DNA of 55,561 nucleotides from Nitrospirota bacterium. Its GTDB lineage: Bacteria; Nitrospirota; Thermodesulfovibrionia; Thermodesulfovibrionales; JdFR-88. Below the pieces are notes generated by a model that saw nothing but the letters and a program-made list of their open reading frames with translations, ran no database searches and was not told where the DNA came from. Numbering within the stretch: the first letter of the stretch is position 1; every line of letters begins with the position of its first letter. The position numbers and the translations under genes are program-made. Positions 11,966-19,806 of the stretch are shown here, piece by piece. Location of the stretch: assembly GCA_021789555.1 (NCBI GenBank), contig JAJYJK010000012.1:1-55561 (forward strand), read 5' to 3'.

Positions 11966-12014
11966 ATCCCCCTCGCCCAACCCTCTCCCCTCTGGGAGAG
12001 GGTTTCACTAAAAG
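11966..12014. repeat. palindromic repeat (family A), copy 2
   Basis: The unit aaccctctcccctctgggagagggtt, followed by tcactaaaag, is nearly identical to the first half of the copy at 6660. It sits in the 81-base gap between thiL and rimO. Confidence 0.6.
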
Positions 12015-12018
12015 AGAC

Positions 12019-13413
12019 ATGAAAAATTCATTCTATCTTTTAAGTCTCGGGTGTCCCAAGAACCTGGTGGATTCCGAGAAGCTGACCAGGAGGCTTTGTC
12101 TTTCGGGGCTGCGCCCGACGCGGGAGGCGGAGGAGGCGGACACGCTCATAGTGAACACCTGCGGTTTCATTGAGGCCGCCAGGAAGGAATCGATAGATGA
12201 GATTCTGGGGCTTGCGAAGCTCAAAGGGGGCAAGAGGAGGCTTTTGGTCTTTGGTTGCCTTTCCGAGAGATACAAGGAGGAGCTGCAGGCGGCGCTTCCG
12301 GAGGTGGACGCCATGTGGGGGGTAAACGCCGAGGAGGAGATCGCGCGTTATATGGGCACCAGTGCCGATGACGCCAGCGCCGATGACGCCAGCGCCGATA
12401 ACACCAGCGCCGATAACACCAGCGCCGATAACACCAGCGCCGATAACACCAGCGCCGATAACACCAGCGCCGATAACACCAGCGCCGAGGCGCGGCCTTC
12501 GACGTTTCCATACGCGTATCTAAAAATATCCGAGGGGTGCAGGAGGCGCTGCTCTTTCTGTTCGATACCGCTTATTCGCGGCCCGCTCCGGAATTATTCG
12601 CCGGAGACGATATTGAAAGAGGCCGAGGATTATATACGGTCGGGGACGAAGGAGCTGATACTCGTCTCGCAGGACACGGCAAGCTACAAGGTAAAGGGTT
12701 TCACATTTTCCGAGCTGCTAAAGGATATTTGTTCGATACCGGGAGATTTCTGGGTGAGGGTCCATTACCTTCATCCCTCGGGGGTTGACGACTCGATACT
12801 GGAGGCGATGGCGGGCGAGCCGAAGGTCGCAAGGTATCTGGATATGCCGCTTCAGCATTCGGAGCAGCGGATTTTGAGGCTCATGTCGCGGGGCGGGGGC
12901 CGGAGGGATTTTACAAAAATCATTAATCGCGCGAGGAAGATGATGCCCGGCCTTGCGGTGAGGACGACCTTCATAGTGGGTTTTCCAGGGGAGAGCGAGG
13001 AAGAGTTCGAGGGGGTTTTGGATTTCATCGAAGAGACGGGCTTCGAGCACGCGGGGGCGTTTGTCTACTCGAAAGAGGAGGGCACGGGCGCGGCCCGGCT
13101 GCCCGGGCAGTTGCCGAAGGCCGTGAAAAAACGCCGGTGGGAGCGCTTCATGCGCGCTCAGGCCGCAATCAGCCTGGAGAAAAACAAGTCCCTCATTGGG
13201 CGCGGGATGACGGCGCTCGTGGACGAGACCGACGGCAAGTTCGCCATCGGCAGGCTTGCCTCGCAGGCCCCCGACGTGGACGGGGTCGTTTTTATCGAGG
13301 ACGAAAAAGGCGCGCTCAAACCCGGCGATTTTGCGCGTGTGCTTGTAACGGAGGCCCAGGACTACGACCTCAGAGGGCTTTCACTTTCACTTAAACCGGC
13401 GGCGCAGGGATGA
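12019..13413 (+). CDS. rimO: ribosomal protein S12 methylthiotransferase RimO with a repeat-expanded linker
   Basis: A 464-residue radical SAM enzyme that methylthiolates an aspartate of ribosomal protein S12. The N-terminal UPF0004 domain holds the second cluster (C12 in SLGCPKN, C48 in VNTCGF, C80 in VFGCLSE). The radical SAM ligands are C174, C178 and C181 in EGCRRRCSFCSIP, and a TRAM domain ends the protein. Between the first two domains, residues 115-154 consist of eight tandem five-residue units (two SADDA, six SADNT) encoded by a 15-bp minisatellite. RimO normally has only a short linker here, so this insertion is unusual. The stop overlaps the next start (ATGA). Confidence 0.93.
   Translation: MKNSFYLLSLGCPKNLVDSEKLTRRLCLSGLRPTREAEEADTLIVNTCGFIEAARKESIDEILGLAKLKGGKRRLLVFGCLSERYKEELQAALPEVDAMWGVNAEEEIARYMGTSADDASADDASADNTSADNTSADNTSADNTSADNTSADNTSAEARPSTFPYAYLKISEGCRRRCSFCSIPLIRGPLRNYSPETILKEAEDYIRSGTKELILVSQDTASYKVKGFTFSELLKDICSIPGDFWVRVHYLHPSGVDDSILEAMAGEPKVARYLDMPLQHSEQRILRLMSRGGGRRDFTKIINRARKMMPGLAVRTTFIVGFPGESEEEFEGVLDFIEETGFEHAGAFVYSKEEGTGAARLPGQLPKAVKKRRWERFMRAQAAISLEKNKSLIGRGMTALVDETDGKFAIGRLASQAPDVDGVVFIEDEKGALKPGDFARVLVTEAQDYDLRGLSLSLKPAAQG
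12361..12488 (+). repeat. in-frame 15-bp minisatellite within rimO
   Basis: Eight contiguous 15-bp units: 12361-12375 agtgccgatgacgcc, 12376-12390 agcgccgatgacgcc, and six identical agcgccgataacacc units (12391-12480), then a partial agcgccga. The unit length is a multiple of three, so gain or loss of copies changes the protein by five residues without a frameshift. The identity of the six last units indicates recent expansion or homogenisation. Confidence 0.97.
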
Positions 13414-18197: not shown

Positions 18198-19806
18198 CGG
18201 GGTGAAGGTAAAAACGATGAAAGACGGCAGGGGCGACCACATGGATATCGACGGCTCCCCAATAGACATCGGGGGGCTTTCCATAGATTCCAGGCGGGTG
18301 CGCGCCGGGGACCTGTTTTTCGCCCTCAAGGGCGGCAGGGCCGACGGGAAGGCATTCATAGCCGATGCGATAAGCAGGGGCGCGGCCGCCGTATTGGCCG
18401 ATTCCCCAGGCGGCATGGACGAGGTAAAGGCCGGCGCGCCGGCCTTCATAGAGGTCGGGGAGGGAGAGGGCCGGCTGGCCCTCTCCGCCATAGCGGCCAA
18501 TTTCTACGGCAACCCGTCGAGGCGGCTTGCGGTCATCGGCGTCACCGGCACGAACGGAAAGACGACGACGGCCTTTCTCATACAGCAGGCGCTCGAATGC
18601 CTGGGCAAAAAGACGGGGCTCATAGGGACGATAAAATACATCGTGGGGCAGGTCGAGAAGGCCGCCCCCTTTACCACGCCCGAGGCCCCCGAATTCCAGT
18701 CGATGCTCCGGGCCATGCTCGAAGCGGGCCAGACCCACGTCGTCACCGAGGTCTCCTCGCACGCGCTCGCACAGAGGCGCGTCGACGGCACTTCTTTCAG
18801 GGCGGCGGTCTTTACCAACCTGACCAGGGACCACCTGGACTTCCACAAGACGATGGAGGATTATTTCGAGGCGAAAAAACGCCTCTTCACCGTGCTTCTG
18901 GAAAAAGAAAAAGGGAAAAACCCTTCCGCCCCCGCAATCATAAACATGGACGACCCCTTCGGACGCCGGCTCGCCCGGGAACTCTCGGGGAAGGCCCCCG
19001 TCATCGGCTTCGGCATTGAGGAGGAAAATGCTCCGGACATACGCGCGGCGTCAATCGTCAACGGGGCCTCCGGCCTTTGCTTCGAGATCGTCTATCTGGG
19101 CCGCGGATACGAGGTGAATTCCGGCCTCATCGGGGTCCATAACGTCTACAACCTGATGTCCGCCTTCGGGGCGCTTGTGGGGCTCGGCTTCGGGGCGGAG
19201 GAGGCCGCGGCGGCCATCCAGCGCCTGAAGGGCGTAAAGGGCCGCTTCGAACGCATCGACTGCGGTCAGGATTTTATCGTCGCGGTCGATTACGCGCACA
19301 CGCCGGACGCCCTCGAAAGACTCATCGGGGCCGCGCGGGAAATTGCGAAAGACGGCATGCACGACCGGATAACTGACCGGATAAGTGACCTAAAAACGGG
19401 CCGGAAGATAATCGTAGTCTTCGGGTGCGGAGGCGACAGGGACAGGGGCAAGAGGGCGCAGATGGGACATCTCGCGGCAAGCCTGGCGGATTTGGCCATC
19501 GTCACCTCCGATAACCCCCGCAGCGAAGACCCGCTTGCGATTATAGACGATATAAAGGCCGGCATGGATGATATAAATGCGGCGGCGGGCAAAGCCCGCC
19601 TTTTCATACCGGACAGGGCGGAGGCGATCAGAAAGGCGGTCGGGACGGCCGCCCCAGGAGATATCGTCCTTATTGCTGGAAAGGGGCACGAAGACTATCA
19701 GGAGATAAAAGGCGTGCGCCATCCTTTTAGCGATCAGGCTGCGGCCGTCCTGGCGATAAAAGAACTGGCGGCGGGCCGCCAGGCGATAAAGGAACGCGGA
19801 TGCTGA
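18175..19806 (+). CDS. murE: UDP-MurNAc-tripeptide ligase MurE (meso-diaminopimelate type)
   Basis: A 543-residue ATP-dependent ligase that adds the third amino acid to the peptidoglycan precursor. SIDSRRVRAGDLFFAL is the uridine-binding domain signature, GVTGTNGKTTT the ATP loop, and EVSSHALAQRRVDG a catalytic region. The motif DNPRSEDP near the C-terminus is the recognised marker of meso-diaminopimelate-adding enzymes. It is longer than the usual ~490 residues because of an N-terminal insertion (about residues 11-25) and small loops. A ribosome binding site (aaggggc) lies inside the end of ftsI. Confidence 0.95.
   Translation: MKLSTLLDGVKVKTMKDGRGDHMDIDGSPIDIGGLSIDSRRVRAGDLFFALKGGRADGKAFIADAISRGAAAVLADSPGGMDEVKAGAPAFIEVGEGEGRLALSAIAANFYGNPSRRLAVIGVTGTNGKTTTAFLIQQALECLGKKTGLIGTIKYIVGQVEKAAPFTTPEAPEFQSMLRAMLEAGQTHVVTEVSSHALAQRRVDGTSFRAAVFTNLTRDHLDFHKTMEDYFEAKKRLFTVLLEKEKGKNPSAPAIINMDDPFGRRLARELSGKAPVIGFGIEEENAPDIRAASIVNGASGLCFEIVYLGRGYEVNSGLIGVHNVYNLMSAFGALVGLGFGAEEAAAAIQRLKGVKGRFERIDCGQDFIVAVDYAHTPDALERLIGAAREIAKDGMHDRITDRISDLKTGRKIIVVFGCGGDRDRGKRAQMGHLAASLADLAIVTSDNPRSEDPLAIIDDIKAGMDDINAAAGKARLFIPDRAEAIRKAVGTAAPGDIVLIAGKGHEDYQEIKGVRHPFSDQAAAVLAIKELAAGRQAIKERGC

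Follow-up and report, generated by a model that had tools for sequence, protein, structure and literature searches.

Why should a housekeeping enzyme carry, between two of its domains, a run of five-residue repeats encoded by a 15-bp tandem array? The question is raised by the rimO gene of a Nitrospirota bacterium, probably of the order Thermodesulfovibrionales (contig JAJYJK010000012.1), which lies in the 55,561-nucleotide stretch of DNA analysed here (the window). The gene, its domains and the linker that holds the repeats are located as follows.

12019–13413, + strand: rimO, 30S ribosomal protein S12 methylthiotransferase, 464 aa, carrying the array (ORF, TIGR01125, Foldseek).
12031–12321, + strand: UPF0004 (N-terminal methylthiotransferase) domain, residues 5–101 (Pfam PF00919, 81.9 bits).
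12367–12486, + strand: disordered interdomain linker, residues 117–156 (AlphaFold2, pLDDT <50).
12523–13029, + strand: radical SAM domain, residues 169–337 (Pfam PF04055, 92 bits).
13195–13377, + strand: TRAM domain, residues 393–453 (Pfam PF18693, 63 bits).

A previous sequence-only reading had called the enzyme otherwise canonical, and this holds. The ORF scores 448.5 bits against the curated TIGR01125 model (cutoff 356.95), the UPF0004, radical SAM and TRAM domains are all present, and both cysteine triads (Cys12, Cys48 and Cys80 of the UPF0004 domain; Cys174, Cys178 and Cys181 of the radical SAM CxxxCxxC motif) are invariant in the RimO alignment. Modelling of the linker, proposed in the same reading, was carried out with AlphaFold2 (33 relatives; mean pLDDT 88, pTM 0.85) and returned intact domains (pLDDT >90) joined by a disordered segment, residues 117–156, that coincides with the array region (pLDDT <50). 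The closest structure to this model was T. maritima RimO (4JC0; Foldseek TM 0.91 by target length). The window RimO is ordinary as an enzyme, and its linker alone is odd; the protein is expected to be still active, with the repeat peptide a passive and flexible segment.

Next to the gene, a stem-loop, CCCTCTCCCCTCTGGGAGAGGG, followed by TTTCACTAAAAGA, occupies positions 11975–12020 and directly adjoins the start codon of rimO. The genome of the window has a related stem-loop elsewhere (G000:C43, L240), again with TTTCACTAAAAGA, and none was found in the sampled stretches of congeners.

The array itself can be resolved into units.

12355–12489, + strand: 15-bp tandem array, nine units of a 12-bp (imperfect) hairpin plus a 3-bp spacer, GAT or GAG (TRF, unit-by-unit reading).
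12355–12366, + strand: unit 1, perfect mini-hairpin GGCAC-CA-GTGCC (GGCACCAGTGCC), a member of the GGNACCAGTNCC family.
12370–12399, + strand: units 2 and 3, GACGCCAGCGCC plus GAT, each with one mismatch in its arm pairing (unit-by-unit reading).
12400–12489, + strand: units 4 to 9, AACACCAGCGCC plus GAT (GAG in the last), six identical 12-mers (unit-by-unit reading).

TRF ranks it as the strongest tandem array in the window (12357–12488, period 15, 8.8 copies, 96% matches, score 229). It is read in the rimO frame as GT-SADDA-SADDA-(SADNT)x6-SAE, and its unit length is a multiple of three; TRF, ORF and Pfam data agree with the initial description of a coding minisatellite, set in the loop that joins UPF0004 to the radical SAM domain, whose 15-bp unit preserves the frame of ORF 12019–13413. 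That description counted eight copies, six of them identical; the six stand, but nine units are in register (12355–12489). Compared with the scheme of the mini-hairpin family (N5-CA-N'5 at a 15-bp period), only unit 1 of the nine is a perfect hairpin, units 2 and 3 carry one mismatch, and units 4 to 9 are decayed, with three of five arm pairs broken. The first search pattern, TCGGCGGACAACACG, was dropped as a mistaken unit. The exact array unit recurred neither elsewhere in the genome of the window (at up to 3 mismatches) nor in viral contigs, and gave no real match in congeners and the family. Because the predicted RNA fold of the whole linker is ordinary in the window (z −0.98) and moderate in the congener G002 (z −2.9), no RNA function is claimed.

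Comparison with relatives shows how far the window linker departs from the norm. The genus is sampled by three genomes, all drafts: that of the window (G000), G001 and G002. In 43 RimO proteins the linker was taken as the sequence from the first domain's end to the radical SAM motif; it is 63 aa in the window, the longest of the set, versus 42–43 aa in the two congeners and 27–52 aa across the 42 other sequences. The window linker thus exceeds those of its congeners by about 20 aa and the shortest linkers by about 35 aa; an earlier figure of 40 added residues is true only against the latter. In G002, a 42-aa linker with (SAKGT)n carries about four hairpin units at the orthologous place (GGCGCCAGCGCC-AAA, GGCACCAGTGCC-AAA, GGCACCAGTGCC-AAG and GGCGCCAGCGTC), all perfect or near-perfect, and the GGCACCAGTGCC hairpin of window unit 1 thus appears twice. 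Both arrays are built alike, from 12-bp inverted repeats N5-CA-N'5 plus a 3-bp spacer. The 43-aa linker of G001 holds an unrelated 18-bp repeat (2.5 copies, RPLGAE). Linker length therefore differs among relatives as anticipated, although the contrast in hairpin units (nine in G000, about four in G002) is one between two species, each represented by a draft. A second in-frame 15-bp repeat was observed in G001 rimO (GIGPS x2.7; L169 3462–3501), inside the radical SAM domain.

Draft status also raises the prospect that the rimO array is an artefact of short-read assembly. The window genome is in 108 contigs, and 135 bp is near read length, so the identical units may have been miscounted. On the other hand, the 5' side of the array is anchored by graded variant units, the frame is intact, and the independent assembly of a sister species (G002) has a related array in the same place; an artefact is extremely improbable.

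Other palindromes occur in the same linker in more distant relatives. In family f2 (rimO loci L016, L019 and L008 of G024, G035 and G044, respectively), G035 and G044 carry a different dispersed palindromic repeat in frame in the linker (G035 has 10 copies, including two within rimO), and G024 rimO holds two copies of yet another palindrome. The linker DNA folds better than dinucleotide shuffles in G024 (z −5.1) and G035 (z −3.9). Since several kinds of hairpin or tandem DNA occur there, the RimO linker is a site that tolerates them in this order. In both G024 and G035, the second palindrome copy sits in another loop of the same gene.

The membership of the array in a genus-wide mini-hairpin family was missed by the sequence-only reading. 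Copies of GGNACCAGTNCC number 38, 52 and 47 in G000, G001 and G002, compared with 9, 20 and 9 for backwards-pattern controls, whereas six other genomes of the taxonomic family fall below their controls (G003, 6 vs 12; G004, 7 vs 12; G005, 3 vs 27; G007, 10 vs 11; G008, 14 vs 23; G010, 2 vs 11). The exact 12-mer GGGACCAGTCCC has 32, 39 and 30 copies in the three genus genomes against 0, 2 and 0 for its backwards control. Among same-strand GGNACCAGTNCC neighbours lying 12–60 bp apart, 18 show a spacing of exactly 15 bp, and every other spacing together accounts for 10. A tandem-pair pattern with a 15-bp period, in which the spacer was free and the arms partly free, matched 2, 25 and 5 times in G000, G001 and G002 (32 in total) in a search of 176 genomes of the order; three further matches lay in family f8 (G048 and G066), none in the 171 other genomes, and the backwards control gave a single match over all 176.

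A check independent of the motif, made like the small-hairpin survey on sampled stretches rather than whole genomes, found a CCAG/CTGG hairpin in 12 of the 28 period-15 TRF arrays of the genus (the window's own array being one of the 12) and in none of six such arrays from four other genomes. In the drawn stretches, general small-hairpin excess by loop type was weak, and only CA-centred hairpins were modestly enriched in the genus (79 vs 45, 49 vs 26 and 30 vs 19). Genome-wide tandem-repeat density was rejected as a genus trait, as G019 and G022 are similarly dense. A literature search for the hairpin 12-mer returned nothing relevant.

These counts bear on the simplest reading, namely an isolated coding minisatellite that grew when a low-complexity linker underwent slippage and that resembles the CCAG hairpin family by coincidence. 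Several observations fit: the six identical units have no hairpin potential, RimO linkers are length-tolerant across the order (27–63 aa), the G001 linker has its unrelated 18-bp duplication, and 16 of the 28 period-15 arrays of the genus lack the hairpin. However, unit 1 matches the family perfectly, and family hairpins that are perfect or nearly so make up the orthologous array of G002; by our estimate, the probability of such a coincidence at a 130-bp site, with 47 copies per 2.9-Mb genome, is about 0.002. We consider this reading decidedly unlikely.

Where the hairpin lies in genes, its hosts are diverse. Those recognised by Pfam include a TamB-like protein with seven units, a LigT-like phosphoesterase, a HAD hydrolase, a TPR protein, CarB, MurD, HflX, an AMP-binding acyl/acetyl-CoA synthetase, PilP, a NuoF-like protein and a SPASM radical SAM protein. 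Further recognised hosts are a sigma-54 response regulator (between the AAA lid and HTH), NifDK/EN-like proteins (where the hairpin separates the two domains in G001 and is C-terminal in G002), HPF (between its two domains) and a histidine kinase (inside the HisKA region). Placement is mostly at domain borders, linkers and termini, so that the majority of copies avoid the interior of recognised domains; the HisKA, HAD and LigT-like cases are exceptions. Among Pfam-recognised hosts the DNA is read in five of six frames, host frames having been taken as the longest open stretch, so that single cases may be wrong; the peptides produced, by frame, are GTSPG, GPVPE, GDQSR, GHQCP, GTGPx and GLVP.

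The arms of the hairpin also covary. Positions 3 and 10 are paired in 44 of 52 units (shuffle mean 22, maximum 33), and positions 2 and 11 in 42 of 52 (shuffle mean 26, maximum 38), although some of these units came from a pattern that restricted positions 2 and 11 to R and Y. Both values exceed all 5000 shuffles, and seven different fully paired 12-mers occur among the units; because units within one array are not independent, such counts overstate the number of events. Given the unrelated hosts, the use of five of six frames and the covarying arms, the conserved object is the DNA hairpin rather than the SADNT peptide.

Two hosts show gain or loss of hairpin units at sites that are unoccupied in relatives. 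CarB of G000 has about 20 extra residues with two units in the linker between its halves, absent in 8 relatives, and MurD of G002 has an N-terminal array of three units that the window murD lacks, the proteins being otherwise 84% identical. Separately, MurE in the window (19363–19390) contains a 12-bp in-frame duplication (DRITDRIS), which lies within an insert that neither G002 nor G003 has.

The same evidence weighs on the proposal that selection acts on the protein, with the repeat serving either as a flexible spacer of tunable length or as a contingency locus through which RimO activity is altered. The exact interdomain position, the frame-preserving unit and the disordered linker would suit such a role. 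Yet the peptide chemistry varies (SADNT is acidic, SAKGT basic, and other genera have neither), the same DNA element lies in many unrelated proteins in other frames, and a 15-bp unit is unable to switch frame; selection of this kind is very unlikely. The significance formerly attached to an acidic, Ser/Thr-rich linker was not upheld, given the basic congener repeat and the occurrence of the hairpin DNA in other frames elsewhere.

Outside genes, the hairpin appears in other settings. In G000 it also forms the tip of a larger dispersed intergenic palindrome, TTCCCTGCGGCTTG-GGGACCAGTCCC-CTTGACGCAGGGAA (L233, L234, L237, L238, L241 and L247). Exact GGGACCAGTCCC is abundant beyond the genus as well, with 45 copies in G048 and 63–244 in genomes of genus g52 (G087, L294–L303; G080; G108). 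In G087 it lies within an apparently intergenic element, GCAAG-GGGACCAGTCCC-CTTGACCCCAT, possibly REP- or terminator-like, and no 15-bp arrays of the hairpin were found in that genome.

A REP-type element mobilised by a RAYT/Y1 tyrosine transposase, with the intragenic copies as transposition products, is another potential source. Each of the three genus genomes has PF01797 genes, the G000 hairpin tips larger intergenic palindromes, and both 5-bp stems and copies within genes have been described for GTAG REPs (PMC3733652). However, PF01797 copy number is similar (0–3) in hairpin-poor genera, no GGNACCAGTNCC lies within about 12 kb on the contig of any located PF01797 gene of the genus, the repeat unit has no GTAG or CGTC tag, and the strict 15-bp head-to-tail period is better explained by slippage than by transposition. 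The transposase was rejected as the driver, since its genes do not neighbour the hairpin and their number does not follow that of the hairpin, and the REP explanation as a whole is unlikely.

The rimO array is instead probably one site of a neutral intragenic mini-hairpin minisatellite family in this Nitrospirota genus, and the whole looks like a DNA-level process that lengthens protein linkers, not a special feature of RimO. Each unit comprises a 12-bp inverted repeat, N5-CA-N'5 with the consensus GGNACCAGTNCC, and a free 3-bp spacer; units occur singly or head-to-tail at a 15-bp period, inside and between coding genes. Counting against this reading, a single unit of the nine in the window is a perfect hairpin, the six that expanded are no longer hairpins, and the folding of the linker is not unusual. 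Slippage in replication between units would lengthen or shorten arrays, template switching across the quasi-palindrome would restore arm identity, and purifying selection on the host protein would remove insertions that break frame or fold. Template switching is known in bacteria, and in yeast it homogenises short inverted repeats in coding genes (PMC8604942). A GGCACCAGTGCC-type rimO array was probably already present in the common ancestor with G002, and the six identical copies may then have arisen through expansion of a decayed unit (AACACCAGCGCCGAT) in the lineage of the window. A bolder version, which we regard as speculative and rather doubtful, holds that the 12-bp hairpin maintains itself independently of any transposase, spreading through coding genes of a few Nitrospirota lineages, copied as DNA and restored by template switching, as a minimal selfish or mutational element that remodels interdomain linkers.

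If the self-maintaining reading were true, new linker peptides would repeatedly arise in housekeeping enzymes. To our knowledge, palindromes within genes have been described chiefly in Rickettsia, where they are long and inserted singly; a family of 15-bp tandem hairpins spread across many enzymes would rank among the smallest such systems. Its arrays record their own history in unit order, arm pairing and unoccupied orthologous sites, and slippage and template switching could therefore be separated directly by sequencing. They also carry a warning: odd linker peptides such as (SADNT)n are no ground for reading in function.

Among known systems, Rickettsia palindromic elements resemble this family as palindromic DNA tolerated in frame in many unrelated genes (PMC10969869). 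As that source describes them, they are single insertions of about 150 bp with a conserved peptide (Ogata et al., 2000, 2002), whereas the mini-hairpin is 12 + 3 bp, tandem, read in nearly all frames and without a conserved peptide; going by this account, a 12-bp element giving peptides in five frames does not belong to that class. GTAG/CGTC REP families are likewise short dispersed stem-loops with stems down to 5 bp, some of them tandem or intragenic (PMC3733652). The mini-hairpin falls outside them, having no tetranucleotide tag by its stem, a strict 15-bp head-to-tail period and no associated Y1 (PF01797) gene. PARCEL repeats share tandem coding repeats, dyad-symmetric DNA and a patchy phylogenetic distribution, but their product is a conserved amphipathic domain of 25 residues, carried by ORFs that have no assigned function (PMC2996958), in contrast to a 5-residue unconserved unit inside housekeeping enzymes. 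The window RimO matches its own family (TIGR01125, 4JC0) in domains, conserved cysteines and predicted fold, and differs in an interdomain linker longer than any other compared. Finally, ordinary bacterial coding minisatellites or VNTRs are like the rimO array in their short in-frame unit and in a copy number that differs in relatives; the mini-hairpin is set apart by a unit that is common to many loci of the genus, is an inverted repeat and has covarying arms.
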